NCBI GenBank assembly: GCA_018700525.1
Contig: JABITN010000216.1
Location: forward strand, 1-57,874
Length of the DNA stretch: 57,874 bases
From: Opitutales bacterium
Lineage (GTDB): Bacteria > Verrucomicrobiota > Verrucomicrobiia > Opitutales > Opitutaceae
Direction of reading: 5' to 3'
Positions within the stretch are counted from its first letter, which is position 1; each line of letters opens with the position of its first letter. Under the pieces are notes generated by a model, which saw nothing but the letters and a program-made list of their open reading frames with translations, ran no database searches and was not told where the DNA came from. Positions 16,469-37,569 of this stretch are shown here, piece by piece. A program made the position numbers and the translations under genes.

Positions 16469-17881
16469 CTACAACTCCGCTCGTTCTTCCGAGAAGACGT
16501 TTCCTGTCGGTTCCTTAGGCAAGGTCACTTTCCAAGCCTCGATTTTCCGTAATAGGCGCTTCGCTACTTCCGGTTTCTTCGCCTTCAGGTCCCGCTTCTC
16601 GTTAACGTCTTTCGTTATATCGTAAAGCTCTACATGATTCGCTTCAGTGCTCGATACCAACTTCCAATTTTGATGTACGATAGCATAGGCCACCCAATGA
16701 TCCGGCTTCGAATTAGAAGCCGGCCATTTCGCTGCCGATTTCCAATAGAGCGGCGTTTCGCGCTTTTCAAACGACCTCCCCTTTAACGTAGCCAATTGGC
16801 TAACACCATCCGGTTTGTAAGTAGATGGCAATGACACGCCTGCTATCTCGCAGAAAGTCGGAAGCAAATCCACTCCCGACATCAAAGAACTATCATCAAT
16901 CGCCCCTGCGGCAACTTTGCCTGGCCAACGAACGATAAACGGCACTCCAATTCCACCCTCGAACAAGGCAGCCTTATAACCTTTACGTCCAGCAGTAATC
17001 CCCTTCGCACCCGCAATTCCCCATCCAGCACCAGTCGCTGTATCGTATTGTAAACCAAGCTCCGCATTCGGAGCTCCTCGGGCCGGGCCATTGTCGGAGC
17101 TAAAGACCACCAGCGTGTTATCCGCTATACCCAATCGGTCAAGCGTATCAAGCACCTCGCCAATCCGATCGTCCGCATGCGAGAGTACCGACGCATAAAT
17201 CCGATCCGTTTCGTTTTCCAAATGCCGAAAGCGCCACTCATACTTCGGGACCGTATGGAAAGGCGTATGCGGCTCATGCACCCACAGGTTAACGAAGAAA
17301 GGTTTTCCTCCCTTGACCGACTTTTCGATAAACGCATTTGTGTGCATAGAGTCTTCGTGCACCGGCATCTGCTCGCCCGCACAATTAAAGGCTCCGTATT
17401 CATCATACCCATACTCCGATGGAACCGGCGAATCGGGGATCATATCGTTCGCCAAATGCCATTTGCCAAAGTGAGCCGTCGCGTAGCCTGCGGTCTTCAA
17501 AAACTTGGGTAAAGTCGACACACCCGTATCCAACCAATCCGGCATATTGCGCTTCGCGTTGCTGGGCACCCAGGCAAAGTGACCATCGATATTGTATCGA
17601 GCCGGGAAATGCCCCGTCATAACCGCAGTCCGGCTTGGCGAGCAAACTCCGCTCGCTACGGTGAAACGATGAAAATCAGTACCTTCCTTCGCCAGTCGAT
17701 CGATGTTCGGCGTCTTAACGTAAGGGTGACCGTGGCAACTCAAGTCGCCCCAGCCCCAGTCATCGGCAAAAATGAAAAGAATATTCGGCTTCTCTTCTCC
17801 TCGCACAGAAGAAAATGCGAGTAGAGCACCGAGCAACAACGTTACTGATTTAAGGTTCAAATCCGTCTTAAAACGATTCAT
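16469..17881 (-). CDS. periplasmic sulfatase (S1 family)
   Basis: A complete 470-residue sulfatase with a signal peptide ending near SVRGEE. The metal-binding ADDWGWGD motif starts at residue 39. The maturation motif CSPSR begins with Cys80 and is followed by TAVMTG, so the Cys would be converted to formylglycine by a maturation enzyme that is not in this window. HFGKWHL, SSDNGP and a C-terminal NWKLV segment complete the family signature. It hydrolyses sulfate esters on sugars or aromatic compounds in the periplasm; its general look is close to the N-acetylgalactosamine-6-sulfatase/arylsulfatase-A-like branch, without proof of substrate. It is divergent from the broken sulfatase at 18094. 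Confidence 0.93.
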   Translation of the reverse strand: MNRFKTDLNLKSVTLLLGALLAFSSVRGEEKPNILFIFADDWGWGDLSCHGHPYVKTPNIDRLAKEGTDFHRFTVASGVCSPSRTAVMTGHFPARYNIDGHFAWVPSNAKRNMPDWLDTGVSTLPKFLKTAGYATAHFGKWHLANDMIPDSPVPSEYGYDEYGAFNCAGEQMPVHEDSMHTNAFIEKSVKGGKPFFVNLWVHEPHTPFHTVPKYEWRFRHLENETDRIYASVLSHADDRIGEVLDTLDRLGIADNTLVVFSSDNGPARGAPNAELGLQYDTATGAGWGIAGAKGITAGRKGYKAALFEGGIGVPFIVRWPGKVAAGAIDDSSLMSGVDLLPTFCEIAGVSLPSTYKPDGVSQLATLKGRSFEKRETPLYWKSAAKWPASNSKPDHWVAYAIVHQNWKLVSSTEANHVELYDITKDVNEKRDLKAKKPEVAKRLLRKIEAWKVTLPKEPTGNVFSEERAEL

Positions 17882-18093: not shown

Positions 18094-19509
18094 ATGGATC
18101 GAAAAACGCTCGGAGTTCTTCTCTTCGCATTTCTGCAATGCTTGCCCCTATCATGTATCACCTACGCAAAAGATAGCCCAAACATCATAATCATCATGGT
18201 CGATGATATGGGCTTCGCCGGTCCAAGCATAGCGCCGTACAGCAATCCCAATTACGAAACTCCAGGAATGAATCGCTTCGCAAGAGAAGGAATGCGGTTT
18301 ACCGACTTTCATTCATCCAGGACTGTCTGTTCGCCAACTCGAGCTGGCTTGCTAACGGGACGCTACCAACAACGAGCAGGAACCGAAGCAGTCATTCATC
18401 CCTACTCAGGCCATCCGGAGCACCGCAAAGGTTTGCGGAAAAGCGAGACTACATTCGCTGAGCTATTCAAAGAATCGGACTACAATACGGGCGTCGTCGG
18501 CAAATGGCATTTGGGGTACTCGAAGGACGATCCAGAGTTTCATCCGCAAAATCATGGTTTTGATTATTTCAGAGGTTATCACAGCGGGAACATCGACTAT
18601 ATCAATCATTGGGGAGATCACTACGATCAAGATTGGTGGCACGACAAAGTCATAACTCCATAAACTGGATACACTACTCATCTAATTAACCGCTACGCGC
18701 TTGAATTCATCGAAGAAAACAAGGATAAACCTTTCTGCCTGTACGTTGCCATGAATCGCCTCATGCGCCTAACCAAGGACCGAACGGCCCCATTCAACAT
18801 GGCTCCGGAGCTGCCACAAGAGAGACCTCCGTCAATGAAGCGATGAAGCAAATGATTTTGGAGATGGACCAGGGAGTCGCTCAAATACGCAACAAAATCG
18901 TCGAACTGAATCTAGATAAAAACACACTCATCCTCTTTTTCTCTGATAACGGCGATGCTCCCCAAACTTCAACGGGCAGCCCATCGCTTCGCGGACACAA
19001 AGGGTCTGTCTACAAAGGCGGTCACCGCGTTCCTGCAATCGCTTGGTGGCCCGGGAAAATCGAAGCTGGCTCGATCACCGATTCACTCGCGATCACACTT
19101 GATGTGACTCCCACGATTCTATCTATTGCAGGGATCGAAGCAACTGACGACCAAAGGTACGATGGTATCGATCTATCCCCAATTCTATGCGAACAAACCG
19201 CACTTCCCGCTCGACCGCTCTATTGGGCCGATCTTTCCAATGGCGGAAGACGTTCGGAAGCGATGCGCGATGGCGTCTGGAAGCTGATCGTACAGCACCC
19301 CAATGCCAAAGAGGGAACCTTCGAAAACGAGACGATCGAACTCTACCGACTCGATAGCGATCTAAGCGAAGCAAACGATCTCGCCCAAACCCAGCACCAA
19401 GATACTCGCCCAAATAAAAGCTTGGTACGCCGCCAAGGAGCGAACGCTAACCCCTCAACCGGGCGGATGGCTCAACTTCGATATGACCACCAAAGAATCC
19501 AACAAGTAG
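18094..19509 (+). pseudogene. sulfatase (S1 family) pseudogene, three lesions
   Basis: The first 189 codons encode a normal sulfatase start: signal peptide, MVDDMG metal motif and CSPTR with Cys79. An in-frame TAA at 18661-18663 then cuts it. Reading on, the same frame continues as sulfatase ([14 protein letters not shown]) until 18750, where one base is lost and the frame moves to [26 protein letters not shown] and FFSDNGDAP. A third lesion near 19396 moves the true C-terminus (AWYAAKERTLTPQPGGW) to yet another frame, ending at the TAG at 19507-19509. Ancestral length was about 470 residues, as in its neighbour at 16469. Three independent lesions favour real decay over a sequencing error. 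A translated N-terminal stub could not be an active enzyme. Confidence 0.88.
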
Positions 19510-19610
19510 TTTCAGGAATTTAGAAACGCGAAACAAGACTCGTATCCAAAGCCCAATTAGGTAGATCAATAACTCTGACTAATTCCGGTTTTCAGATCCG
19601 GAGATAATCC

Positions 19611-20555
19611 TCACCAGGTGCGCTCCTTCAGCAATTCTTGTATTTGTTCCCTGGGCACGGAAAGTTCGTCGATGTGATTATTGAGCCACTGCGAGAAGTC
19701 TTTCTCGATTTCATCTGTCCAACGATCGTCGATTTGACCTGCAGTATAGATACCGGCTTTCAAACGCTCAAAGCCGAATTTGTCACGGAGGCGAATGAGC
19801 TCAGCTGTCTTAACTACTTTTCCCGCTAAATGGGCAGGGATCACGATGATGCCTGAGCGTTTACCGAGAATGACATCGCCCGGCATGACGGTTACGCCCC
19901 CCACATTTACGGGAACATTGATGCCAGTAATCATAGATGCCCAGTAAAAGCTCGGATTCCACCCACGTACAAAACCATTGAATCCCTCAATTTTTTCCAA
20001 CTGCTCTAGGTCGCGAGCCACTCCATTGAAAAGCACTCCATTTCCTGAATTTGCAAAAATCGTCGTCCCCAAACTCGCTCCGATAATCGGGCCGCCATCA
20101 TTCTGATTATTGTATACATCTGCCACATACACGTCTCCCTGCTGCAAGATGTCGATAGGCCAAGTTACCTGACCTCCGACATGACCGTCCACTTCAGCCT
20201 GCGCGCCGATCACTTCATTGACGTCTTTCCGTAACGGCATATACATCGCGGTCATCGCTCGACCGCAAAGCGTCTCTCCGGGATGAACGTGTTTCCAACC
20301 GTCCTCGAATTGATACTCGTAGCCTTCGTTTTTTAGGACCACCCATGCGGCTTCAATATCCACAAGCTTCATACGCTCGATGATGCTGTCGGAAACTTTC
20401 GGGCGTCCATTGGGGAAGCGCTCCCCTTCCCAATCCGGAGTAAATTTGATCATCGCCTCACGATCCAATTCAAATGGCATGGCTGAAACGAAAGAAATGC
20501 CCATATATAGGCAGACCAATGAAACGACGATTCGTGTAACGGTATTTGATGTCAT
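19611..20555 (-). CDS. RraA-like family protein with signal peptide
   Basis: A 314-residue protein. The core (about 90-260) has the RraA/HMG-aldolase family pattern: a Gly-rich loop leading to GVLFNGVARDLEQL, in which the Arg-Asp pair forms the substrate/metal site, and later VMPGDVILGKRSGIIVIP. In the family this last motif usually has an acidic residue where Lys-Arg stands here. Relatives are aldolases for 4-hydroxy-4-methyl-2-oxoglutarate and similar keto acids, or regulators of RNase E. Unusually, residues 1-25 form a convincing signal peptide (VSLVCLYMGISFVSA), pointing to the periplasm. It is the last gene of the Tct/TonB operon, 50 bases after the enolase-superfamily gene. Aldolase or lyase activity on a sugar-acid-derived compound is inference. 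Confidence 0.78.
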   Translation of the reverse strand: MTSNTVTRIVVSLVCLYMGISFVSAMPFELDREAMIKFTPDWEGERFPNGRPKVSDSIIERMKLVDIEAAWVVLKNEGYEYQFEDGWKHVHPGETLCGRAMTAMYMPLRKDVNEVIGAQAEVDGHVGGQVTWPIDILQQGDVYVADVYNNQNDGGPIIGASLGTTIFANSGNGVLFNGVARDLEQLEKIEGFNGFVRGWNPSFYWASMITGINVPVNVGGVTVMPGDVILGKRSGIIVIPAHLAGKVVKTAELIRLRDKFGFERLKAGIYTAGQIDDRWTDEIEKDFSQWLNNHIDELSVPREQIQELLKERTW

Positions 20556-20605: not shown

Positions 20606-21832
20606 TCACACGAAGTCGGAGCTAGTTCCGGGTTCTTGGGGTATTTCGTAAATTCCACCATTTACGACTGCAGGATGCAAAAAGAATTCTTTGAGATGAG
20701 GAATGTGTTCGAGAAAGATCGCTTCGTGTCCCATCGCGATGTGATTAAACAGAACTAGATGTTGATGGATCTGCCCCATGTCTCCCACATGCGGCACAAC
20801 GGGCAAACCGAACTTTCGAGCTAATAGGCTCACGGTGATGAATTCGCTTACCCCTCCTACGCGTGTGCAGTCAACCTGAACGAAGTCCACAGCCTTAGCC
20901 AACATGAAGTTCTTGAACAGGACCCGGTTTGAGACGTGCTCGCCCAGAGCAATCTTCAAAGGAGCAATCTCTCGGGCCAAAGTCTGGTGAGCGATGACAT
21001 CATCCGGGTGAGTAGGCTCTTCAATCCAATAGGGAGCCATCCCAGCCAATTCTTTTGAAACTCGTATCGCTTTGGGCAAGGACCAGACCTGGTTCACGTC
21101 CAACATCACTCTTGCGTCATCGCCCGCGCCTTCTCTCACGATGTAAGCTCTGCGGATATCGCGAGCCGCATCGGCTGAGCCGATTTTCAGCTTCATCGCC
21201 AAAAATCCAGCGGCAACCGCTTTCTTGACGTTTTCTCTTACCTGCTCATCTGAGTAATTAAACCAACCAATGGAGGTGTCATAACCTGGGTAACCCTTGC
21301 CTAGAACTCCTTCCCGCGCTGAACGGCTACTCTGATGACTATTTAAAAGGCCGAGAGCATCTTCTCGCGTAAGCACTTCTTCGAGGTAACTCAGATCCAA
21401 AGTGTTAACGATTTGTTCCGCCGACAGATCCAGTAACAAACGCCACAAGGGAACCCCACGGCTCTTCGCCCACAAATCAAAACAGGCATTCGTTATGCTC
21501 GCCAAGGCCAAGTGCACCATGCCTTTGTGCGGACCTAGCCAACGGTATTGAGGGTGGTCCGCCAATTGTCTGAACACGACTCCAAATTGAGACATTAATT
21601 CCTCGATCTCACAACCGACCAACGACGATCCCAATCCCTCGATCAGCGAGCAGATCTCCCTATTTCCCGCCCCAATGGTAAACACTATTCCGGTTCCAGA
21701 AACTTGGCCGTCCGTATGCAAATAAGTTACAGCATAGGAATATACTGGATCCGTATGCACCGAATCAGTACCATCTCCTTCCTTCAAAGGGAACGCCTTC
21801 ACTGATGTACTAATTCTCGTAATGGTATTCAT
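20606..21832 (-). CDS. enolase-superfamily sugar-acid dehydratase, L-fuconate dehydratase-like
   Basis: A 408-residue cytoplasmic enzyme. Catalytic residues line up with the L-fuconate dehydratase pattern: Lys214-x-Lys216 (AMKLKIG), Asp245 (LDVNQVW), Glu271 (WIEEPTHPDD), Glu298 (GEHVSNR), and His348 (PHVGDMG) as the acid/base. The N-terminal capping domain (YLHTDG, FTIGAGNREI) and the WRLLLDLSAEQIV segment also resemble that enzyme. It would abstract a proton from an aldonic acid and expel water to give 2-keto-3-deoxy-L-fuconate or a similar product. Only 3 bases separate it from tctA upstream, so uptake and dehydration are tightly linked. Specificity for fuconate itself is likely but not proven, as related subgroups act on galactarate or rhamnonate. 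Confidence 0.85.
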   Translation of the reverse strand: MNTITRISTSVKAFPLKEGDGTDSVHTDPVYSYAVTYLHTDGQVSGTGIVFTIGAGNREICSLIEGLGSSLVGCEIEELMSQFGVVFRQLADHPQYRWLGPHKGMVHLALASITNACFDLWAKSRGVPLWRLLLDLSAEQIVNTLDLSYLEEVLTREDALGLLNSHQSSRSAREGVLGKGYPGYDTSIGWFNYSDEQVRENVKKAVAAGFLAMKLKIGSADAARDIRRAYIVREGAGDDARVMLDVNQVWSLPKAIRVSKELAGMAPYWIEEPTHPDDVIAHQTLAREIAPLKIALGEHVSNRVLFKNFMLAKAVDFVQVDCTRVGGVSEFITVSLLARKFGLPVVPHVGDMGQIHQHLVLFNHIAMGHEAIFLEHIPHLKEFFLHPAVVNGGIYEIPQEPGTSSDFV

Positions 21833-21835
21833 ATA

Positions 21836-23329
21836 TCAATTTCGACTACCTCCGTATCTATATCTTTTATACAGCGGAATGGAAAGTAGAACGATCGAAG
21901 AAAGCACGAAGATCAAAGACACCGGGCCTTGAATCAATGGCAGAAAACTTCCATTCGATGCCATCAATCCCATCTGCAAATTTTCTTCTGCAATCGGCGA
22001 CAATATAAACCCGATAACGAATGGAGCCAGGGGGATTTTCATCTTTTCAAATCCGTACCCTAACAATCCGAAAAAGAGCATCGTCCATACATCGAACATT
22101 CGCGTCGACAGAGCAAATGAACCAATAATACAGAAAACGAGAATTACTGGCATGAGCATGCTCCTAGGGATGGAGGCCAGGCGCGCCAAATAGCGAACCG
22201 CTACAATCATGAAGCAAAACATGAACACATTCGAAACGAACATCGCGCCCATAATGGTATAGACCATTTCAGGATTCTGCTGGAAGAGCAATGGACCTGG
22301 TTGCAGGCCATGGATAAGCAAGCCTCCTAGCAAAATAGCATCGATCACGCTCCCAGGTATGCCCAGGGAGACCAAGGGTATGAGCGCGCCACCAATAGTA
22401 GCATTATTGGCTGACTCCGAAGCCACGATGGCTACTTCTGAACCTTTGCCAAACTTGGTCTGCTCCTCTGGCTTGGCCATCGATTTAGCGGCGCTGTATG
22501 CGGACACCGATCCGATATTCGCGCCTATTCCTGGCAAAATTCCTACCCACGTTCCTATAACTGAAGAACGAACTAAATTGATTACCTGATCCTTCCAGTC
22601 CTTGAGTTTGAAGAACATATCCCGAGTTCGCTTGACCGGTATGATTGTAATCTTTTCATCGATACGGCTTAGATCGGAGATAACCTGGCTAATAGCGAAC
22701 ATTCCGATGAGAACCGGCAACAGCTTGAGTCCGCCATTCAACTCCTCAAACCCGAAGGTAAGTCGAAGGTTCCCGGTAGCCTTATCAATTCCCGGCAAGG
22801 AAGCGAGGACTCCTAAAGAAGCGGATAAAAATGCGCTGCTCATTGATTTCCCCCCAACGGAAGCAATGAGCACAAATGCGAGAAGAACCAAAGCAAAGAA
22901 ATCAAATGGTCCTAGCTTTGTAGAGTAACGCGCGATGGGGCCTGACAAGGAGATCAGAAAAACCCACGAAATGCACCCTCCGACAAACGATGCCGTAATA
23001 CCTAAACCTAACGCCCGACCTGGCTTCCCAGCCCGGGCCATCGGGTATCCATCCATCGTTGTCATGATAGACGCTGGCGTTCCCGGCATACGCAGCAAAG
23101 TCGCCGTAATGAGGCCTCCGCTGATCGCACCCACATACATGCTGATTAAAAGAATAAACGCGTTTACCGGAACCATGTTAAAGGTCAGCGGCAGAGTCAG
23201 GGCAATCAACATGGCGCCGGTAAGACCTGGAATCGCTCCCATCGTAATACCCAGCACGGTGCCAAGAACGACTAAAAACAGACCCTGAACGCTAAAGAGA
23301 TAAGCAGATGCTACTTGTAATGCTTCCAT
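21836..23329 (-). CDS. tctA: tripartite tricarboxylate transporter, large permease subunit TctA
   Basis: A 497-residue inner-membrane protein with about 11-12 hydrophobic helices. The conserved TctA signatures are present: GAIPGLTGAMLIALTLP near residue 32, the RMPGTPASIMTTMDGYPMA region near 80, and the GILPGIGANIGSVSAYS repeat near 262. It moves carboxylates (tricarboxylates, sugar acids, aromatic acids) with ions. It lies 9 bases after the TctC-TctB fusion gene and 3 bases before the dehydratase, so all are translated from one message. Together they form a complete TTT system encoded by two genes, not three. Confidence 0.95.
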   Translation of the reverse strand: MEALQVASAYLFSVQGLFLVVLGTVLGITMGAIPGLTGAMLIALTLPLTFNMVPVNAFILLISMYVGAISGGLITATLLRMPGTPASIMTTMDGYPMARAGKPGRALGLGITASFVGGCISWVFLISLSGPIARYSTKLGPFDFFALVLLAFVLIASVGGKSMSSAFLSASLGVLASLPGIDKATGNLRLTFGFEELNGGLKLLPVLIGMFAISQVISDLSRIDEKITIIPVKRTRDMFFKLKDWKDQVINLVRSSVIGTWVGILPGIGANIGSVSAYSAAKSMAKPEEQTKFGKGSEVAIVASESANNATIGGALIPLVSLGIPGSVIDAILLGGLLIHGLQPGPLLFQQNPEMVYTIMGAMFVSNVFMFCFMIVAVRYLARLASIPRSMLMPVILVFCIIGSFALSTRMFDVWTMLFFGLLGYGFEKMKIPLAPFVIGFILSPIAEENLQMGLMASNGSFLPLIQGPVSLIFVLSSIVLLSIPLYKRYRYGGSRN

Positions 23330-23338
23330 GGATAAATT

Positions 23339-24649
23339 TTAGGGTAAATCAATGGTGAACAACTGAGTAAATACGAAATGGAGCCCGAACGACATCAGTA
23401 AGGCGACCTCCAGAACATAACCGAATTTGCGTTTATCGAAGCGCGTTAGCAAAAGACCGCTAGCCACAATAAAAACAATAGTAGCCCATGCGAATGGCAT
23501 AATCCGAAGCCCAAGCAATAGGACATAGACAATCGTCATAAGAATCGTGCCGAAGGCTAAATCATATCGCAAACGAAGTGTATCCGATTTTTGAAGTTCC
23601 TGCTTCGGCCTCAACCACCGTTTCCAAAATACAACTAAACTAAAGAGAGCGACCGACACCAAATTCCATAGCGTGAAATCAGGAAGTTCAACGCGATTTA
23701 TCGGTTTTATCGAATCGAAGATCTCCGTCCTTTCCCGAATGCGCGTATTCATTTCATCTCCTACGATAATCCTCGGCAAAATCTCCAAGTCCTTCGTTTT
23801 CCCGAGAAAATAATCGGTTTTCATAACCTTGCTCAGCACACCGGCAAAATAATCGACAATCCCTTGATCCGTTCCCTTGGGAAACCACCAGTAGTGAAGA
23901 TTACCACCGAACACAGGAAATCCTAATTCTTCTGCGGTAGGAATATCAGGAATCGATGCAATACGCTCCTCCCCTAGATAAGCGATCGCCTTCAATCCAT
24001 TTTGTTGGAAACGAACATATTCCCCAATCGATAAGATAATCACATCCAAATGCCCTCCCATCACTCCGGCTAGGCGATGGGCTCCACCGCCGGTCGCGAC
24101 AAAACGAAATCGCGCTCCCGGCAAAGCATTCTCCAACATGATCGCGCAGAAATGGGACGGCGTATTCAGGTTTACGCCAAACTTCAATGTTTCCGGCTGC
24201 TCCTTGGCCGCCGCCATCAGAGCGCCTAGAGATTGATAGGAAGATTCTTCCGATACGAGAATCACCACTCCGAATTCTCCCGTAGCGGCAACCGCTTCAT
24301 AGTCGCCAGGGCCATTGGGCGATTGTCCTGTGGATTTCGCTACCATCAGTGCTTCATGCAAGCAGAGCACCGTGTATCCGTCGGCTCGCGCGTCCTTCAC
24401 ATAACTACTGCCAATCGAGGTGCCACCCCCCGGTTTATTTACGATGACCAGAGGTTGCGGCATGAGCTGGTCGTCGTTGATCGCCTTTTGCACGATTCGC
24501 GCAAAAGTATCTGACCCGCCACCCGGTTGAAATGGCACCACCACTCGAACCGGTTTCCTTGGGTAGTCGTCTCCGCCAAACGAACCGGCTTTAAAATACT
24601 GAAAAACAGACAGAAGGATCAGCCCAGCGATTATTATATGCCTGATCAT
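23339..24649 (-). CDS. TctC-TctB fusion: TTT solute-binding domain joined to small membrane subunit
   Basis: A 436-residue protein in two parts. Residues 28-310 are a TctC-type solute-binding domain: YPRKPVRVVVPFQPGGGSD, NKPGGGTSIGSSYV and IASIPDIPTAEELGF are hallmark segments. It is preceded by one N-terminal hydrophobic helix. Residues 325-430 contain four hydrophobic helices (about 325-342, 363-381, 384-402, 410-430) and match a TctB-like small permease subunit. No separate tctB or tctC gene occurs nearby, so the fusion supplies both. The binding domain would be tethered to the membrane instead of free in the periplasm. The ligand is probably a carboxylate; the adjacent dehydratase suggests an aldonic acid. 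Confidence 0.88.
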   Translation of the reverse strand: MIRHIIIAGLILLSVFQYFKAGSFGGDDYPRKPVRVVVPFQPGGGSDTFARIVQKAINDDQLMPQPLVIVNKPGGGTSIGSSYVKDARADGYTVLCLHEALMVAKSTGQSPNGPGDYEAVAATGEFGVVILVSEESSYQSLGALMAAAKEQPETLKFGVNLNTPSHFCAIMLENALPGARFRFVATGGGAHRLAGVMGGHLDVIILSIGEYVRFQQNGLKAIAYLGEERIASIPDIPTAEELGFPVFGGNLHYWWFPKGTDQGIVDYFAGVLSKVMKTDYFLGKTKDLEILPRIIVGDEMNTRIRERTEIFDSIKPINRVELPDFTLWNLVSVALFSLVVFWKRWLRPKQELQKSDTLRLRYDLAFGTILMTIVYVLLLGLRIMPFAWATIVFIVASGLLLTRFDKRKFGYVLEVALLMSFGLHFVFTQLFTIDLP

Positions 24650-24691: not shown

Positions 24692-25678
24692 CTAAGGCCT
24701 TATCGGCCCCGTCACTTCCCACTGAAACCCCCGAGTTGTGGTTTTTAGCACTCCCCCGACTCCTCCGTAGTATAAAGTCGGCGGATCGGTTTTCGGGTCG
24801 AAGGCCAAAGTCCAGGCCATATTCGACCAGCGCAGGCCTGCCGACTCAAATGTATCCGCATTATCGGTACTGACAAAAACACCCGCTCGAGTTCCCACAT
24901 AAACATGTGCAGGATTAGCAGGGTCAATAGCCATAGATTCAATGTGCTCCATCAACGGCTTTTTCCCAGCAGTCCAAGTTCGCCCAGCATCCTCCGATCT
25001 AAAGATGCCGCGCGGCTGCGTCCCGACATAGATGATATTCGAATTCGTAGGATCGAGCGACAAAGTCCGCACATCCACATCGTAGATCCCTTCAGTGTCC
25101 GCACTCCAGCTAACTCCTCCGTCGGTGGTCTTGTAGACACCATGCCAGGTCCCCGCATAAAGCGTATCAGGCTGATTCGGATCGATCACGAGAACGCGTA
25201 CTACCTTATCGATGAGGCCGCGATTGATTTCCTTCCATTCGCGGCCACCGTTGGTGGTCTTAAAAACGCCTCCTCCATCAGTCCCCGCGTAAACGACCTG
25301 ATCGTTCTTCGGATGAATCGCCAACCCTCTCATCTCGCGATATGAAATTCCTTCACTGACGGCTTCCCAAGTTATCGCTCCATCTTTCGATCGGTAGACG
25401 CCCATTTTATGGGTACCCACATAAAGCAGGTCTGGGTTAGCCTCGCTTATGACGATGGTGCGGGGGGAAAGCATGCTCAGTCCGTAGGTTGGCCAATTAT
25501 CCTTCCCTCCGTTCAAGGATTTGCACAGGCCCTTGGCTGCGCCAGCGTAAATAATATCAGGATTTGTAGGATGGAAGGCAACTGCCTGTGTCTCCCCATG
25601 TCCGGGAGACGCCATCTGAGCATGGATAATATGCACGCTTAAGAACGCGGCGAAGAGAGCTATGAGTGACTTTGACAT
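24692..25678 (-). CDS. secreted BNR/VPS10-type beta-propeller
   Basis: A 328-residue protein starting at the second possible ATG (MSKSLIALFAAFL), which gives a clean signal peptide ending at IHAQ. It has six to seven repeats of the Asp-box/BNR type, each with HPTNPDIIYAG-, SKDGAITWE- or TTDGGVSWS-like segments at about 45-residue intervals. The whole chain is one propeller, as in Ycf48-like and sortilin-type proteins, and lacks a separate catalytic domain. It could bind carbohydrate or help assemble a periplasmic complex; sialidase activity is unlikely because no catalytic Arg triad can be made out. It starts 2 bases after the 660-residue gene's stop and precedes the Tct genes, so it belongs to the same operon. 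Confidence 0.82.
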   Translation of the reverse strand: MSKSLIALFAAFLSVHIIHAQMASPGHGETQAVAFHPTNPDIIYAGAAKGLCKSLNGGKDNWPTYGLSMLSPRTIVISEANPDLLYVGTHKMGVYRSKDGAITWEAVSEGISYREMRGLAIHPKNDQVVYAGTDGGGVFKTTNGGREWKEINRGLIDKVVRVLVIDPNQPDTLYAGTWHGVYKTTDGGVSWSADTEGIYDVDVRTLSLDPTNSNIIYVGTQPRGIFRSEDAGRTWTAGKKPLMEHIESMAIDPANPAHVYVGTRAGVFVSTDNADTFESAGLRWSNMAWTLAFDPKTDPPTLYYGGVGGVLKTTTRGFQWEVTGPIRP

Positions 25679-25680
25679 TT

Positions 25681-27663
25681 TCAGCGGTCCCATGGAAAAG
25701 CGAAGCTTGGTTTATTGGAATAGCGATCAAGATAGATGCGAATGGTTGAAGCCGAACCTGGATCCAATTTCACGGCAAAAGCAATTCCATCTACCTCTTT
25801 GATGTCCCTCATTCCTGCATCATCCTCATACACCTCCGCTGAACGTGGATTGCCTACAGATCGATTTGGCCCAGCTGCTTTAGAGAACTCCACACGTTGG
25901 ATACGGTGTTCGCCATAGGCTCCGCCTTGGACGATTAACGATCGGGATTCGGTCACGTGAAGATTAACGACCTCCACTTCAATCCAATCGGGTTCAATCC
26001 GTTTCACGAGGGCGGCCACATCCCGCGGAAGCCCGGAGCGCTGAGTTTCGCCATCGAAGTAACGAACCTGCGAATGCAGCATTTCGCCTCTTGTATCAAT
26101 AGGGATTCCTCCAATCGAAAATCGGTTGAGGCTACTCGTGCGCATAGGATTCATAGCCATCCACTTGCTGTCCACCCACGTTTCGGAATAACCATGCTCA
26201 TTCTGGATCAGTTCGATTTCATGCTGAATGGCCTTCAATTCTCTTTGGAATACTCTCGCTGGATAGCCCGGATTGAGACCTTTGACGAAATAAGCCCATT
26301 CAAGGTCCCCATCCGTGATCCTTCCTCTCGTCTTTTTCTGAGCTTCGGCCAGTCGCTCGATATGCTGCCAGTCCTCTTCGCTTTGAGACGTGTACCAAAG
26401 GTGGAGATAGAGTTCGGGATCCTCTTCGCGATAGTGATACCAACCGCGGTGATCATGACGCCATGGAACGACCGATGTTCCTTTTCGGATTTTTTCAATC
26501 GTCTCTTCACTTACATTCCGCTTTCGCAGCTCGGACGGGTCGATGGAGGCTACTCCGTCAATGAATCCGTTTCCCCTAAGCACGCCAATTTGGCTTCGAG
26601 CCAAGTTCATCCAGCGAGTGTCGCCTGAAAGCAATGTAGCGACCTTTCCGCTGAGCACCAATGTTCTCATAATATGGGTTCCGCTTGGCCATACCCAGCC
26701 GTAGTAGCCGCCCCACCAGTGCCCTGTGTGCTCGCCTATCTCACCGGAAATACCCACATTGTCTGGGATGATCCCGTTGTTGCGCTGGGTTAGCCTTTCC
26801 CAAGTCGTGAGATAGTCGGTTGTCCATTGGATATACTTCTCGTCACCAGTATATAAATACGCGTTGGCTATCAGGGGAGTGGAGATCATATTGATCGGGA
26901 CGTCTCCTTTGGCCATACGATCGCTCATCGCCTTGACCAGTACGGCAAATTGATCGTTGTCTGGGTGGTCGTTGATCCAGGCGGTGGATGAATCAATGCC
27001 GGGTATGTCCAAAAATGGCAGCGGATAATAGGTCAGGTTCGCATTGGTCGGGGTCCAATCGCGCTTGTTCCATTCCATTAGCGGACCGCGACTTCCGGTC
27101 ATGACAGCCCGCATTTGCTTTAGCTCAGGATCCCAGTTTGGAGCTTCCGGGTCCTCGCCAATATACATGGCTGCGAAACGAATGGCGCGATCTTTAAACA
27201 CCTCATTGTAAGGCTGGACCATGCCCATTGGATAGAAGTTTATATACCCTTCGCCATGGTGCATCCAATCCCAGTTCGAATCGAATTCCCGGTAGATCTG
27301 ACCATAGCGGGTGAACTGCTTTGTAATCCCTTCCCATGCGAAACGGTTCTTTTTGTCGATTTCAAGCGATCCCCCAAGAGCAGTATGAAGCGAGAATCCT
27401 CTGAACGCTTCATACATGTCATCCGATGAATTCATACCACTCTCGTAACGCTCCTTAAAAGTGAGCATCCCATTCTCGTCTACATACTGGTCGTAGAAAA
27501 CGCCTGCAGCCTTATCCAAGGCATCAATGAGAGCGCGCTCATAAAAGGCCCATGCGGGCGGCGCGGAAGGTTTATCACAATAGATCTGAACCAAGGCATC
27601 ACTCTTCTGAGCTTGAGCCGAGGCCGTGAAGCAGAAAACCAGCAAGCAAATAGTTTTCAACAT
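25681..27663 (-). CDS. large secreted protein, probable alpha/alpha-barrel, function unknown
   Basis: A 660-residue protein from the ATG at 27663 (an in-frame ATG 33 bases upstream is possible but would precede the signal peptide). The signal is ICLLVFCFTASAQAQ. Long helical stretches with many Trp, Tyr and His (FDSNWDWMHHGEGYINFY, HTGHWWGGYYGWVWPSG) suggest an (alpha/alpha)n toroid, as in some polysaccharide lyases and unsaturated-glycuronyl hydrolases. A beta-rich tail (LIVQGGAYGEHRIQRVEF) follows. I do not recognise a named family. It lies between the TonB receptor and the propeller-Tct genes. A role in processing the imported substrate in the periplasm is inference. Confidence 0.72.
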   Translation of the reverse strand: MLKTICLLVFCFTASAQAQKSDALVQIYCDKPSAPPAWAFYERALIDALDKAAGVFYDQYVDENGMLTFKERYESGMNSSDDMYEAFRGFSLHTALGGSLEIDKKNRFAWEGITKQFTRYGQIYREFDSNWDWMHHGEGYINFYPMGMVQPYNEVFKDRAIRFAAMYIGEDPEAPNWDPELKQMRAVMTGSRGPLMEWNKRDWTPTNANLTYYPLPFLDIPGIDSSTAWINDHPDNDQFAVLVKAMSDRMAKGDVPINMISTPLIANAYLYTGDEKYIQWTTDYLTTWERLTQRNNGIIPDNVGISGEIGEHTGHWWGGYYGWVWPSGTHIMRTLVLSGKVATLLSGDTRWMNLARSQIGVLRGNGFIDGVASIDPSELRKRNVSEETIEKIRKGTSVVPWRHDHRGWYHYREEDPELYLHLWYTSQSEEDWQHIERLAEAQKKTRGRITDGDLEWAYFVKGLNPGYPARVFQRELKAIQHEIELIQNEHGYSETWVDSKWMAMNPMRTSSLNRFSIGGIPIDTRGEMLHSQVRYFDGETQRSGLPRDVAALVKRIEPDWIEVEVVNLHVTESRSLIVQGGAYGEHRIQRVEFSKAAGPNRSVGNPRSAEVYEDDAGMRDIKEVDGIAFAVKLDPGSASTIRIYLDRYSNKPSFAFPWDR

Positions 27664-27748
27664 CGGTATTCGCGATGAGGGTATGGCATAACGCATTGAT
27701 TGTAATTTCGGTATTTTATCGCGAAAACGCTTTGCGGCAGTATGAAAC

Positions 27749-31633: not shown

Positions 31634-33031
31634 ATGACACGACCAAACATACTCTGGTACTGCACAGACCAACAACGATTTGACACTATCGGCGCGCTAG
31701 GGAATTCGCAGGTTCAGACACCGACGATTGACGAGCTCGTCAAAAATGGAGTCTCCTTTACCAACGCCTATTGCCAAAGCCCCATTTGCACGCCAAGCCG
31801 AGCAAGCATCATGACGGGACTCTACCCAAGTCGAACGCGAAACACACGCAACGGCAACGACACCTTCCCGTCAGACGTTCCACTGATCTCCAAATTGATC
31901 GCGGATTCTGGATACAATTGCGGCCTTATTGGCAAATTTCACCTGGTAAGCGCCGGCCGACGTCCCGAGCCTCGCCTTGATGACGGATTCGATTATTGGC
32001 AGCATTCGCACGCGCCGAGAGATGATTGGCCCGCCGGCGAACACGCTTACGCGGACTGGGTAAGAGCGAATGGAGAGAACCTCGATCTATTGAGAAAGTC
32101 TGACGACCGCGTTCCGTCTGAATTCCATCAAACGAAATGGGCCTCCGACTGCGCCATCGATTTCATATCCCGCGATCACTCTACGCCCTGGATGCTCAAT
32201 ATCAATGTGTACGATCCGCATCCGCCTTTCATCCCTCCATCGGATTACGAGAAGCAATTCAAGGCAGAGGACATGCCCGGACCCCACTTTAGAGAGAGTG
32301 ACCTTAAACACCAAAAAACCTTGAAGAACGTCGATTTCCAAGGTGAGCCCAAAAAGCCGGAAGAGCACGATGCAAAATCAATTCAGGCTAAGTACTACGC
32401 CATGATCGCTCTAATAGACGATCAACTTGCTCGCATTCTCCAAACCCTAGACGAAACTGAACAGCGCCAAAACACAGTTATCATATTCACTTCGGACCAC
32501 GGCGAGATGCTCGGAGACCATGGACTAATGCTCAAAGGCTGCCGCTTCTACGAAGGCCTCATCAAAGTACCCTTGATTTTCTCGTTCCCCAAGGAGTTCG
32601 AATCGAATTTGCAGTGCAATGGCATTACGGAATTGCTCGACCTTTCCGCAACCTTGCTTGCCGTAGCCGGTATCGAGATTCCCGATTATCACCAGGGTAA
32701 AAACCTCCTACCCATCCTCACTGGCCAGACGCCGGGAGACGAAATTCGCAACTCCGCGCGATGCGAATACTTCGACGCGCTGGACACTCAATTTACAAGC
32801 GGATCGGGCTCATTCGCCACGATGTACCGAGACGACCGGTACAAACTATGCGTCTACCACAATCAAAACCTCGGCGAACTCTACGACCTCCTGGAGGACC
32901 CCTGGGAGTTCAACGATCTATGGAACGATCCTGAATATTCGGAAATCAAAAACCGGCTCATCTACGAGAGCTTCAACTCTCACGTCAACCTGACGACCAA
33001 CGTCGGCTCGAAGCGCATCGCGCCAATGTAG
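31634..33031 (+). CDS. sulfatase (S1 family) without signal peptide, probably cytoplasmic
   Basis: A 465-residue sulfatase of full length. The chain starts directly with the first beta-strand, MTRPNILWYCTDQQR, with the metal Asp12; no signal peptide precedes it and no earlier in-frame start is seen. The maturation motif CTPSR starts at Cys52 and is followed by ASIMTG. The later TSDHGEMLGDHG (metal site) and the FDYW region resemble the choline-sulfatase / iduronate-sulfatase-like branch. A cytoplasmic location means the sulfated substrate must be imported intact. It is the first gene of the plus-strand unit, 81 bases before lacI. Maturation would need a cytoplasm-acting enzyme encoded elsewhere. 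Confidence 0.9.
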   Translation: MTRPNILWYCTDQQRFDTIGALGNSQVQTPTIDELVKNGVSFTNAYCQSPICTPSRASIMTGLYPSRTRNTRNGNDTFPSDVPLISKLIADSGYNCGLIGKFHLVSAGRRPEPRLDDGFDYWQHSHAPRDDWPAGEHAYADWVRANGENLDLLRKSDDRVPSEFHQTKWASDCAIDFISRDHSTPWMLNINVYDPHPPFIPPSDYEKQFKAEDMPGPHFRESDLKHQKTLKNVDFQGEPKKPEEHDAKSIQAKYYAMIALIDDQLARILQTLDETEQRQNTVIIFTSDHGEMLGDHGLMLKGCRFYEGLIKVPLIFSFPKEFESNLQCNGITELLDLSATLLAVAGIEIPDYHQGKNLLPILTGQTPGDEIRNSARCEYFDALDTQFTSGSGSFATMYRDDRYKLCVYHNQNLGELYDLLEDPWEFNDLWNDPEYSEIKNRLIYESFNSHVNLTTNVGSKRIAPM

Positions 33032-33112: not shown

Positions 33113-34192
33113 ATGAACAACGAATTTCCTCCGGAGAAGCCTCTAAAACCTCCCACATTTGCCGACATTGCGCAAGCTGCTGGAGTGTGCAAGGCAACCG
33201 TATCGCTTGCACTCAGAAACAACACGCGAATATCGAAGGTCACTCGAGATAAAATCAACCGCATCGCTACGAATCTCGGCTACCAGCTGAACCCGCTCGT
33301 GACTGCTAACATGGCCATGGTACGCAAGTCGAGGGAATGGCATGGAACGATGCCGACCATTGGTCTTCTGAGTACTTGGATTGATGAGCAAAGCGAAGAG
33401 AAACGGGTCGAATGGCATATTCAGAACCGTTTTCTGATGGGAGCAAAACGACGAGCGGCTCGACTAGGGTTCGACTTCGACTATTTGGAATTCGATCTGG
33501 CACACTACTCCAATAAACGAATACAGAAAATTTTAGACAATCGGAATATATCGGGCTTGATAGTCACCCCTCTCAGGTTTTCAAACTCCGAACTCAATCT
33601 CGATTGGGGGAAACTAGCGGTCGCATCGATCGGACTTACCGACAATCTAGGAAATATCCCCAACGTATACTACGATAACTTTCGCTGTATGCAAGATATC
33701 CTCGAGAATCTTTCCCAACGCGGATACCAGCGAATCGGGTTCATCACCGATTCCGAAAATGAGATGCGCGGTGGCCACTTGTGGAACGCCGGATTTTACG
33801 AGTATCAAAACCGAGTAGTCGACAGCGAAAACCATGTCCCCATTCTCCGAGTCCTCAAACCTGAATTGCAATTCGATAAAACGGACTTCGAATCGATGCA
33901 CGATTGGTACAAACAAAACAAGCCAGATGTCATCATCGCTTTCAGGTCAAAGATTCTCGATTATTTCTTAAATCTTGGATACAAAGTGCCCGAAGAATTT
34001 GGATACATGGTCCTGAACTGGTCATCTCAAACTGACGGTTGCTCGGGCTACCGCCAGTGCCATGAGGAAATGGCCGAAGTGGCAGTGAACATCGTCTCCG
34101 AGCGCCTATACAACAATGATCGAGGAACCCTATCCAAGCCCAGAACAACGCTTCTACGAGGCGATTTCGTGGATGGGTTTACGATCAAATAA
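33113..34192 (+). CDS. LacI-family transcriptional regulator
   Basis: A 359-residue regulator. Residues 14-70 are the DNA-binding part: TFADIAQAAGVCKATVSLALR forms the helix-turn-helix, and the hinge helix region NPLVTANMAMVR follows. The remainder is a periplasmic-binding-protein-like effector domain. An insertion of about 20 residues after the hinge (KSREWHGTMPTIGLLS) is as seen in many Verrucomicrobia LacI proteins. It probably binds an intermediate of the locus and represses the two divergent units; the perfect palindrome at 31486 is its best operator candidate. It lies between the cytoplasmic sulfatase and the BASS transporter, on the same strand. Confidence 0.93.
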   Translation: MNNEFPPEKPLKPPTFADIAQAAGVCKATVSLALRNNTRISKVTRDKINRIATNLGYQLNPLVTANMAMVRKSREWHGTMPTIGLLSTWIDEQSEEKRVEWHIQNRFLMGAKRRAARLGFDFDYLEFDLAHYSNKRIQKILDNRNISGLIVTPLRFSNSELNLDWGKLAVASIGLTDNLGNIPNVYYDNFRCMQDILENLSQRGYQRIGFITDSENEMRGGHLWNAGFYEYQNRVVDSENHVPILRVLKPELQFDKTDFESMHDWYKQNKPDVIIAFRSKILDYFLNLGYKVPEEFGYMVLNWSSQTDGCSGYRQCHEEMAEVAVNIVSERLYNNDRGTLSKPRTTLLRGDFVDGFTIK

Positions 34193-34335: not shown

Positions 34336-35586
34336 ATGAAAATCGATTTTAAATCAGCTAAAGGCATTCTTTTAATACCGATAACCGTCACAGCGATTGT
34401 CGCAATAAGCACCACCATCCTAGCGGCTCATTCAGTAGCTGGTCCAGCCGCTATCTTTTTCTTTTTGCTCTGGGCGATATATTTTCAATTTGATGTGTCA
34501 GTGAAGACATTTAGCTTCACCTCCCTCGTATTCGCATTTTTTCTGGCCAGCCTCGTCTACCCAAACGCTTTTTTAGTCGTAGGGGGATTCGATCAAAGAA
34601 GCTTAATCGTGCCGCTCATCCAAATTATTATGTTTGGAATGGGAGCGACATTGAGCCTTCGCGACTTCTCAACTGCGCTCAAGATGCCTCGTGCGGTATT
34701 GATAGGAATTTGCCTTCAATACTCAGTTATGCCGATTGTTGGTTGGGCCATTGCGCTTAGTTTTGGCTTTCAGCCAGAGATCGCTGCCGGAATCATCCTA
34801 ATCGGATCCTGCCCAGGGGGAGTGGCCTCCAATGTGATGGCTTACCTCGCCAAGGGAAACGTCGCCCTATCAGTAACCATGACCGCCTGCTCCACGATGC
34901 TAGCGCCGTTCGTGACTCCGGTCTTGATGAAGATGCTAGCAGGCCAGCTTATTGAGATTAATGTGTTTAGTATGCTCCTCTCGATCGTGAATCTCATTAT
35001 TCTTCCAATCGCAACCGGCCTCGCGATTCACTACTTGCTGAGATCCGATTTGCGCGGAATGATTTGGCGACCTATCGCCCTTGGCCTCGCCTTGCTTTGC
35101 TACTTCGTCGCCAAATCAGCGGTATTGATGAACGAGCAGTTATTCAGTCTCTCCGGGGCACTCGTCCTGATGGCGGTTCTCCGTCGCCATTGGTTGGATA
35201 AAGGACTTCCGGTAGTTTCCATGATCGGCATCTGCTACATCGTCGCCATCATAGCTGCAAACACGCGGGATTCGATACTAGCGATCGGCTTTGGACTATT
35301 CGCCGCGGCAATTATTCACAACACTTTCGGATACGTTTCAGGTTACGGAATCGCCCGCCTTGGTCGCCTTCCCGAGAAGGATTGCCGAACCGTCGCCCTC
35401 GAAGTAGGCATGCAAAACGGTGGAATGGGCTCCGCGCTCGCCATTAGCGTACTCAACAGCACCAACGCTGCCCTAGGCTCAGTCATTTTTGGAACGTGGA
35501 TGAACCTGTCCGGCTCTGCCCTAGCATCCTGGTGGAAAGGACGTCCTCCCGAAGAAACGGTTGCTAACGCACCCTCCGAGCAGTAA
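34336..35586 (+). CDS. BASS/SBF-family sodium:organic anion symporter
   Basis: A 416-residue inner-membrane protein with about 11-12 hydrophobic helices. The middle part has the bile-acid:sodium symporter (BASS) family signature: MGATLSLRDF, then AAGIILIGSCPGGVASNVMAYLAKGNVALSVTMT, which forms the crossed-helix sodium site, and later EVGMQNGGMGSALAIS. An N-terminal extension with two or three extra helices precedes the core (about residues 1-85). BASS members carry bile acids, sulfated steroids, pantoate, pyruvate or similar organic anions with sodium. Placed after a cytoplasmic sulfatase and a LacI regulator, it may import or export the sulfated or desulfated anion. Substrate is inference. 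Confidence 0.9.
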   Translation: MKIDFKSAKGILLIPITVTAIVAISTTILAAHSVAGPAAIFFFLLWAIYFQFDVSVKTFSFTSLVFAFFLASLVYPNAFLVVGGFDQRSLIVPLIQIIMFGMGATLSLRDFSTALKMPRAVLIGICLQYSVMPIVGWAIALSFGFQPEIAAGIILIGSCPGGVASNVMAYLAKGNVALSVTMTACSTMLAPFVTPVLMKMLAGQLIEINVFSMLLSIVNLIILPIATGLAIHYLLRSDLRGMIWRPIALGLALLCYFVAKSAVLMNEQLFSLSGALVLMAVLRRHWLDKGLPVVSMIGICYIVAIIAANTRDSILAIGFGLFAAAIIHNTFGYVSGYGIARLGRLPEKDCRTVALEVGMQNGGMGSALAISVLNSTNAALGSVIFGTWMNLSGSALASWWKGRPPEETVANAPSEQ

Positions 35587-35784: not shown

Positions 35785-37569
35785 CTACTTCCTCGTTACA
35801 ACCGCGTAGTATGCTCCGAGGATATCGAATTCTCCACCCTCAGTTCGAAAGAAACCATGCAACTCGGCAAGACCTTCTTTCAGGTCTACAGTGAAACGAA
35901 CTTCGTCGTCTCGCTTACCGACTTTCTTCTCAATTGTTTGTCCCGATATTTCCAATACGGCAGAAGTGGCGGCGATACTCTTGCCTGCTGCTTCCCGGAA
36001 AGCGGTCAGACCAGGCACGCCAGCGCCTGGAGCCATTTCAGCGTTGATTGGCTTTGAAACTTCCTGCGGCCAGCGGCGCAGAGCGATTTCGTAAGTACCC
36101 GTTTTATCGATACGTATTGACCAAAAGCCATCTCCTTGACGCGCAGTCCTTATAAAATTCTGATGCCAAGGAGTCAGAGGATCATTAGTCAACCAGTCAT
36201 GACCGGTCAAATGCGCGGGGTTCTCCGCGTCGTTACCTACAATGATCGGAGTTTCCTTGGCGAAGCCAGGCGAAATGCTAGCCCACCAACGATCGTAGTC
36301 CGCTCTCATACTTTTCATCACTTCGGGATATTGAGCAGAGACATCCCTTTTTTGACTCGGATCGCTCTCCATATTGTAGAGCTCCTCCCCGTTGATCAGG
36401 CGCCATTTATCGGTCATAGTAGCGGACTTACGCCATTTGATTGGATCACGTACACGCTGTGAATCAGTTACAATCGTACGACTAGGCCATGGTGCCGGAT
36501 TATCGTAAATCAGCGGGGCCAAAGAGCGTCCGTCGAAGCTGTAATCCATCGGCCCATTCAATCCGCAGAGCTCAATCAAAGTCGGCAGAATGTCTATGTG
36601 AGCGGTCAGGGCATTCACGTCCTTCGGCTTGGTAAGCTTTCCATTCGGCCAATGCATGAAGAATGGAACGTGGTGCCCCCCATCATATTCGCTAGCCTTC
36701 GCCCCACGCATTCCGTCGTTGAAGATATTACTGCCAGATGCCGATCCATTATCTGTGGTAAAAATGAAAATAGTATTATCCGCCACGCCTTTCCGATCGA
36801 GCCACTTACGCAATTGCCCAAGGTTATGATCGATGTTGGCGATCATTCCAAAAAATATCGCTTCCTTATCGGAGATGCCTTTATCCGCATACGGTTTCCA
36901 AAATTCATCTGGACAGTGAAACGGCGAGTGCGGAGCATTGGGTGAAATGTAAGTAAAGAAAGGTTTGTCGCTATCGATACTCTCCTCCATGAAACGCTTC
37001 GCTTCTTGGAAATAGACATCGGTGCAGTAGCCCTTGTATTTCGTCGGCTTGCCGTTATGCCAATAGGTGTCGTCGAAGTAAGCATTATCCCAATAGTCCG
37101 GCGTTTGCCCCACTCCACCGCCGCCATGGCGTACGACCTCCGTAAAACCGCGATCCTCCGGACGATAGGGATAATTGTCCCCGAGATGCCATTTACCGAA
37201 CATGCCAGTTGCGTATCCATTATCTCCAAACACCTCTCCGAACGTAGTCGCTTCCGGGCGCAAGAAAGAACGTCCCATGATCGTATGCCAAGGACCCGCT
37301 CGATTCGTATAGTGCCCGCTCATTAATGCGCCGCGTGTCGGAGCGCAGGTAGGGCTCACATGATAATCAGTCAAGCGAACACTCTCGTCATGCAGAGCGT
37401 CCATGGCCGGCGTCTTTAGAATAGGATTTCCAGTAACCGACAAATCCCCATAACCCTGGTCATCGGTGATAATGAATACCACATTCGGCTTACTCGATTG
37501 AGCAAGCAAAGATCCCATCGCGACCGAAGCCACGACGACCGCAATCGCTTTTTTAATTAGGTTTTTCAT
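35785..37569 (-). CDS. periplasmic sulfatase (S1 family) with C-terminal beta extension
   Basis: A 594-residue sulfatase. The signal peptide spans about 23 residues (AIAVVVASVAMGSLLAQ). The metal motif TDDQGYGDL is at 35-43 and the maturation motif CAPTR starts at Cys75. MFGKWHLGDNYPYRPEDRG and TTDNGSASG follow. After about residue 440 comes a roughly 150-residue beta-rich tail (FWSIRIDKTGTYEIALRRWP), similar in place to the extension of the sulfatase at the window start. This layout is common in arylsulfatases acting on marine polysaccharides; the exact sulfate ester is unknown. It is convergent with the BASS gene. Confidence 0.93.
   Translation of the reverse strand: MKNLIKKAIAVVVASVAMGSLLAQSSKPNVVFIITDDQGYGDLSVTGNPILKTPAMDALHDESVRLTDYHVSPTCAPTRGALMSGHYTNRAGPWHTIMGRSFLRPEATTFGEVFGDNGYATGMFGKWHLGDNYPYRPEDRGFTEVVRHGGGGVGQTPDYWDNAYFDDTYWHNGKPTKYKGYCTDVYFQEAKRFMEESIDSDKPFFTYISPNAPHSPFHCPDEFWKPYADKGISDKEAIFFGMIANIDHNLGQLRKWLDRKGVADNTIFIFTTDNGSASGSNIFNDGMRGAKASEYDGGHHVPFFMHWPNGKLTKPKDVNALTAHIDILPTLIELCGLNGPMDYSFDGRSLAPLIYDNPAPWPSRTIVTDSQRVRDPIKWRKSATMTDKWRLINGEELYNMESDPSQKRDVSAQYPEVMKSMRADYDRWWASISPGFAKETPIIVGNDAENPAHLTGHDWLTNDPLTPWHQNFIRTARQGDGFWSIRIDKTGTYEIALRRWPQEVSKPINAEMAPGAGVPGLTAFREAAGKSIAATSAVLEISGQTIEKKVGKRDDEVRFTVDLKEGLAELHGFFRTEGGEFDILGAYYAVVTRK

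Follow-up and report, generated by a model that had tools for sequence, protein, structure and literature searches.

A TctC-TctB fusion gene beside tctA in an Opitutales bacterium, with relatives in Planctomycetota, and the case for a tethered binding domain in a TTT importer

In canonical TTT systems (TctCBA, TC 2.A.80), a binding protein, a small membrane subunit and a large membrane subunit are encoded by neighbouring genes ordered C, B, A. In the genome of an Opitutales bacterium, one reading frame next to tctA seems to hold both of the first two. This locus raises the question whether TctC and TctB are truly fused and, if so, what a transporter with a built-in binding domain could do. The window, i.e., the whole stretch of DNA that was analysed, has 57,874 nucleotides, and the features discussed here are collected in Table 1.

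Table 1. Features of the fusion locus, in positions of the window.
Feature	Position	Strand	Basis and remarks
TctC-TctB fusion gene	23339..24649	minus	436 aa; Pfam, AlphaFold2 model, homologues
N-terminal hydrophobic helix, residues 2-20	24590..24646	minus	AlphaFold2 helix; signal anchor or signal peptide
Periplasmic solute-binding (TctC/Bug) domain, residues ~28-312	23714..24568	minus	PF03401 and Foldseek
TctB domain without first helix, residues 325-436, four helices	23342..23677	minus	PF07331 and model
tctA, large membrane subunit	21836..23329	minus	PF01970, E 1.2e-141
Enolase-superfamily (MR_MLE) enzyme, likely sugar-acid dehydratase	20606..21832	minus	PF13378, E 3.5e-52; next after tctA
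RraA-like aldolase-family protein	19611..20555	minus	PF03737, E 1.5e-17
Secreted beta-propeller (BNR/Sortilin-like) protein	24692..25693	minus	Pfam; upstream of fusion

An earlier note had claimed TctC and TctB in one protein, with a solute-binding domain followed by four TctB-like C-terminal helices. Pfam profiles, an AlphaFold2 model and homologues bear this out. The profile search that it proposed for the chain matched both families, PF03401 (TctC) at residues 51-277 (E 1.1e-20, 74.8 bits against a cut-off of 27) and PF07331 (TctB) at residues 330-436, over positions 37-137 of the 137-position profile (E 7.3e-6). The TctB match lies about at the curated cut-off and not far above it. In the whole-protein Pfam scan it scored 26.6 bits, just below the cut-off of 29.1, and in the profile scan of the source genome the TctB part scored 29 bits, or 29.3 with its neighbours in frame, and was counted as over the cut-off. 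For the fusion protein, nothing relevant came up in NCBIfam. The AlphaFold2 model (pLDDT 83.8, pTM 0.69; alignment of 26 sequences) has the N-terminal helix at residues 2-20, then a binding-protein fold that ends near residue 312, and C-terminal helices at 325-346, 362-380, 386-401 and 406-430, the layout that the earlier note had drawn. The top 17 Foldseek matches to this model were all TctC/Bug-type, with E values from 1.7e-24 (best) to 5.1e-20.

As to membership of the TTT family, the locus thus has a TctC/Bug-type binding protein by profile and by fold, a TctB-family small subunit that is near the cut-off and lacks its first helix, and a TctA-family large subunit (PF01970) in the adjoining gene, which starts 9 bases past the stop codon of the fusion gene on the same strand. 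It does not meet the canonical three-gene pattern of a separate tctB and a free TctC, periplasmic or lipid-anchored, as one frame holds both. Nor does it meet the TRAP P-Q pattern, as no Pfam model of the TRAP families DctP, TAXI and DctQ matched the window protein at E <= 1. Compared with one homologue (L014), the TctC part of the window fusion has a dN/dS of 0.08 and the TctB part one of about 0.11, i.e., purifying selection; against two further homologues, synonymous sites were saturated.

In the source genome, which is 96% complete at 4.8 Mb in 268 contigs, profile searches gave six matches to TctA, seven to TctC and, over the cut-off, six to TctB, of which two are fused; this leaves one TctB per TctA. 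Four other tctA genes, two on contig C123 and one each on C163 and C238 (the last set at a contig end), each have a separate tctB and tctC alongside. The remaining two, on the window's contig (C64) and on C62, adjoin a fusion and nothing separate. Absence of a separate tctB or tctC nearby, which had been asserted before, extends to the whole contig, where the profile scan found no TctB or TctC match besides the fusion gene. A separate tctB pairing with the window's tctA, which would have spoken against the fusion, was looked for genome-wide and not found; the four free tctB genes each lie beside another tctA. The second fusion (C62:92643-93944, L029) is 61% identical to the first, sits beside its own tctA and matches both families. 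One TctC gene (C137:48182-48982, L011) stands alone, its contig having no match to TctA or TctB.

Fused homologues, for which a search had also been suggested, are present in other genomes. Among 57 related genomes, 16 had a match; all 10 other members of the genus carry a full-length fusion, and so does a genome from another family of the same order (G043). In a contig scan of 85,000 species, 25 full fusions were found among the best 80 of 565 confirmed stretches: 16 from Verrucomicrobiota, 8 from Planctomycetota and 1 from Lentisphaeraceae (by record title). With E <= 0.01 as the limit, PF03401 and PF07331 were each found in all 26 aligned fusions, i.e., that of the window and these 25. The fusion count is taken from the contig scan alone; several loci of the genome search are the same contigs (e.g., L018 and L043), and two loci, one cut by a contig end (L075) and one having a long tail without a TctB match (L076), were counted neither as fusions nor as the one-helix forms described below. 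The query consisted of two TctC motifs only, and fusions elsewhere may be missed; the fusion L162, discussed below, was not recovered by it. In phylum surveys, a fusion was found in 4 of 288 Verrucomicrobiota genomes, the source genome included, and in 10 of 294 Planctomycetota genomes. The trait is sparse. These surveys mostly scored only the five best candidates per genome, and distant fusions such as L162 would be missed. Of 299 Pseudomonadota genomes, 42 had a match, and all matches listed end by model position 343 of 442, covering TctC only; two long frames around TctB in this phylum were considered as fusions and rejected, being read as separate genes. Plasmid records matched in 831 cases, one of which covers at least 80% of the query at one place, and the 20 plasmid matches listed all end by residue 322. 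The fusion adjoins tctA in nearly all fusion loci; at L062, tctA is nearby on the other strand.

What the fused TctB lacks refines the fusion reading. All 69 matches of free TctB, which come from 21 out of 90 Pseudomonadota genomes, start at profile position 2-8, whereas the match in fusions starts at positions 21-38: at 37 in the window protein, 36 in its paralogue on C62, 29-33 in most others, 38 in L078, 21 in L161 and 24 in L162. Thus, the fused TctB is without its first helix. A free TctB, that of locus L079, was modelled with five helices (10-38, 52-70, 85-105, 110-125 and 134-156), at low confidence (pLDDT only 68.5), and the four helices of the fusion are spaced like the last four of these. 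An ordinary TctB is predicted to have a cytoplasmic N-terminus (PMC5812351, in the part available). Since TctB starts in the cytoplasm and the binding protein ends in the periplasm, loss of helix 1 means that the periplasmic domain can lead straight into TctB. Over the 26 aligned rows, mean K+R was 1.65, 3.38 and 1.88 in the presumed cytoplasmic stretches and 0.54, 1.31, 0.15 and 0.00 in the presumed periplasmic ones. These positive-inside charges fit a protein with its N-terminus in, its binding domain out and its C-terminus out. At L079, tctC and tctB overlap by one base, so that a deletion across the joint would create a fusion; this step is inferred.

The N-termini of the fusions differ. 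No lipobox was seen in the N-terminal helix of the window protein. Some fusions have a hydrophobic N-terminal helix with no obvious cleavage site, five (L050, L055, L057, L072 and L078) have a lipobox, and L062 has a signal-peptidase-like site. These assignments were made by eye. In our reading, the N-terminal helix is the export signal of the binding protein itself, retained in some lineages as an anchor; in the window protein, it may be either a signal anchor or a cleaved signal peptide.

TctA trees were used to stand in for the history of the fusion. In a tree of 52 rows, the main fusion loci fall in one group of 46 (bootstrap 96, SH-aLRT 87). One exception is L162:4834-6207 (minus strand; TctC E 8.6e-32, TctB E 5.7e-16), a fusion in the same Planctomycetota genome as L050. 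Its TctA groups with the separate TctABC on C123 of the Opitutales genome (100/100), and a single origin of all fusions was rejected for it (log-likelihood 107 lower, p-AU 1.2e-56). Hence, provided that tctA and the neighbouring fusion share their history, fusion of TctC to TctB arose at least twice, with L162 as an independent case. The TctA of L161 also falls among separate systems, and one clade with the remaining fusions was not rejected for it (p 0.106; 0.084).

In Planctomycetota, the joining goes further. In five genomes (L151-L155), the fusion lies within an open frame of 983-984 codons that opens with TctA, and the proteins are 972-973 residues long. Pfam finds TctA at 17-436 and TctC from 585 in all five. 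TctB was matched in none of them as whole proteins and in all five when the last 118 residues were scanned alone (E 6.4e-7 to 2.1e-5; two over the cut-off), the match starting at profile position 32. Among 59 relatives of one of these genomes (G527), 12 genomes, G527 included, encode all 973 residues in a single stop-free frame, with identities of 85-100%. In the TctA tree, the one-chain forms are sister to fusions with tctA first (97/97), and at several tctA-first loci the tctA and fusion genes overlap. The linker from TctA to the anchor helix has dN/dS of 0.37-0.52 with the reading frame kept. Occurrence of the one-chain form in 12 of 59 genomes shows, as far as gene sequences can, that the domains function together.

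Both domains in one conserved and selected frame, the pairing with tctA, the missing helix, the at least two origins and the fusion to TctA in Planctomycetota together make it likely that the locus encodes a two-gene TTT importer, in which the binding domain is tethered to TctA in a fixed ratio and TctB serves as a docking scaffold. The N-terminal helix would start export, and the TctC domain would fold in the periplasm and catch an acidic solute. Its C-terminus would run into TctB helices 2-5, which would hold the binding domain beside TctA; this tether geometry is inferred. With TctB as the scaffold, a free pool of receptors would be replaced by a single built-in one per TctA, a stoichiometry that is likewise inferred. 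The tethered TctC would then hand the solute over to TctA, which would import it by ion-coupled transport; hand-over, ion coupling and transport itself are all inferences. The suggestion that tethering changes ligand delivery, and how the system scales with binding-protein number, follows logically from such an arrangement and is inferred as well. It also remains possible that proteolysis releases the binding domain.

An unlikely alternative, and the strongest of those considered, is that the TctB part has lost any scaffold role and is a membrane anchor only, comparable to a lipid anchor. Its main support comes from nine loci (L054, L058, L059, L065, L066, L067, L068, L071 and L074), where a binding protein related to the fusions ends in a single C-terminal helix. 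There tctA follows directly with no TctB match in between, and Pfam finds TctC in 9 of 9 of these proteins and TctB in 0 of 9. The absence of an adjacent tctB implies that TctB helices 3-5 are not always needed. Furthermore, six of the seven one-helix genomes searched (those of L067 and L074 are not among them, and the genomes may be incomplete) have no TctB over the cut-off genome-wide; the seventh, G337, has one, in a 493-residue frame. In the TctA tree, the one-helix loci lie inside the group of 46, but their nesting among the fusions is weakly supported (83/68 with L078), and the alternative was not rejected (p 0.10). The lipobox seen in several fusions adds to the case for anchoring. However, full fusions keep all four helices and the TctB C-terminal pattern under purifying selection. 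Because some of these would be anchored by a lipobox anyway, the four helices must have a further role, and two of the six TctB-negative genomes have sub-threshold TctB-like matches (E 3e-4).

Less probable still is an insertion of the binding domain into the first periplasmic loop of TctB, whereby the N-terminal helix would be TctB helix 1. The topology would be the same, and some fusions do have uncleaved-looking anchors where helix 1 should sit. However, 28 N-terminal helices of fusions fitted a TctB helix-1 profile no better than did 60 N-termini of TctC proteins (p 0.94) or 258 membrane windows from TctA (p 0.74), and better only than shuffled copies; homology thus lends the insertion no support, although with about 40 columns the comparison is weak. 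The lipoprotein-type or signal-peptidase-type N-termini of several fusions also speak against it. It is very improbable that the fusion is a receptor reporting solute to a regulator and no part of a transporter. A role as signalling partner of TctE is described for some TctC proteins (PMC8102459, seen in part), but tctA adjoins nearly all fusions and is nearby in the remaining case, TctA itself is fused in Planctomycetota, and Pfam found no kinase or regulator domain in the window protein. Finally, joining of neighbouring genes by sequencing or assembly error deserves next to no credence: in ordinary TTT operons, tctC lies next to tctB, as in the overlap at L079, and one lost stop codon would join them, but the same joint without the same helix recurs in many genomes, including the single-contig G007 and G010 and the paralogue on C62, and conservation in other genomes with purifying selection on the TctB part rules out chance or assembly error.

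What the tethered importer would carry can only be guessed. The best guess for its substrate is a sugar acid or a uronate-like compound, inferred from the enolase-superfamily, RraA-like and sulfatase neighbours, whose conservation does not reach beyond close relatives (3 of 36 fusion loci). The best NCBIfam match of the enolase-superfamily enzyme is L-talarate/galactarate dehydratase, far below its cut-off. Homologues of the beta-propeller protein lie near the fusion in 3 of the 36 fusion loci examined. TTT systems for glucarate and galactarate appear in a table of PMC5812351, and systems for alginate products are described in PMC13390454 (both available in part). With a crude motif and no lineage-matched control, sulfatases were found near 17 of 36 fusion loci, 6 of 9 one-helix loci and 1 of 44 other loci. 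Verrucomicrobiota and Planctomycetota are rich in sulfatases in general. Their sulfatase richness is covered in the accessible part of PMC6388578.

Several other genes were observed around the operon. A 671-residue protein (25681-27696, minus strand) with no convincing Pfam family is encoded upstream of the fusion and has homologues near the fusion in L043, L044 and L045. A sulfatase gene at 18094-19523 (plus strand) looks broken: its frame stops at 18663, and the remainder lies in another frame from 18843. Three further sulfatases lie at 16469-17881 (minus), 31634-33031 (plus) and 35785-37569 (minus), and a LacI-type regulator (33113-34192) and an SBF sodium symporter (34336-35586) are also near.

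Fusion within binding-protein-dependent transporters is already known. With the canonical TctCBA system, the window locus shares homologous TctA, TctC and TctB domains in neighbouring genes; in contrast to it, TctC continues into TctB, TctB helix 1 is gone, and two genes (or one) replace three. A TctAB fusion from Paraburkholderia caribensis (PMC5812351) is likewise a gene fusion within a TTT system, but there, as far as the available text goes, both membrane subunits are joined and TctC is free. The direct analogue is the TRAP P-Q fusion, in which a binding protein is joined to a small membrane subunit. According to the portion of PMC8276074 at hand, such fusions are rare, and a landing-pad idea exists for the TRAP small subunit; the families are not homologous to those of the window protein, which has no TRAP match in Pfam. 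TAXI-GltS fusions also place a binding protein and a secondary transporter in one chain, but combine a TAXI protein with a GltS symporter and have no TctB-like subunit (PMC12344293, in part). In ABC importers such as GlnPQ and OpuA, binding domains are covalently joined to the transporter, but these are ATP-driven and their membrane domains are unrelated (PMC8025302 and PMC11065425, partial texts). No report of a TctC-TctB fusion or a one-chain TTT system was found in the literature, most subscription papers and domain-architecture databases being outside the scope of the search, and both forms thus appear new.

The function of TctB is described as unknown in the available part of PMC5812351, and, by the accessible sections of PMC13390454, no TctB has ever been characterised and purification has failed. 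No solved structure of any TctA relative was found by sequence search. A wider idea is possible, and we put it forward tentatively: TctB is there to keep the binding protein in contact with TctA. Fusions would then have arisen at least twice, each dropping helix 1; one branch would have gone on to a one-chain importer, and another, its receptor once tethered, would have shrunk TctB to a single helix. Such a series would separate docking from transport, and TTT systems could run on fixed, tethered receptors with no free pool.

The fusion makes the unknown job of TctB testable. TctB is locked beside the binding protein in the natural fusion, and the one-chain form locks TctA to both, so that a ready-made construct for structure determination or reconstitution is at hand, while the one-helix forms provide a matching test of the need for TctB helices 3-5. 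The finding thus bears on how binding-protein-dependent secondary transporters work with one tethered receptor as against an excess of free ones.
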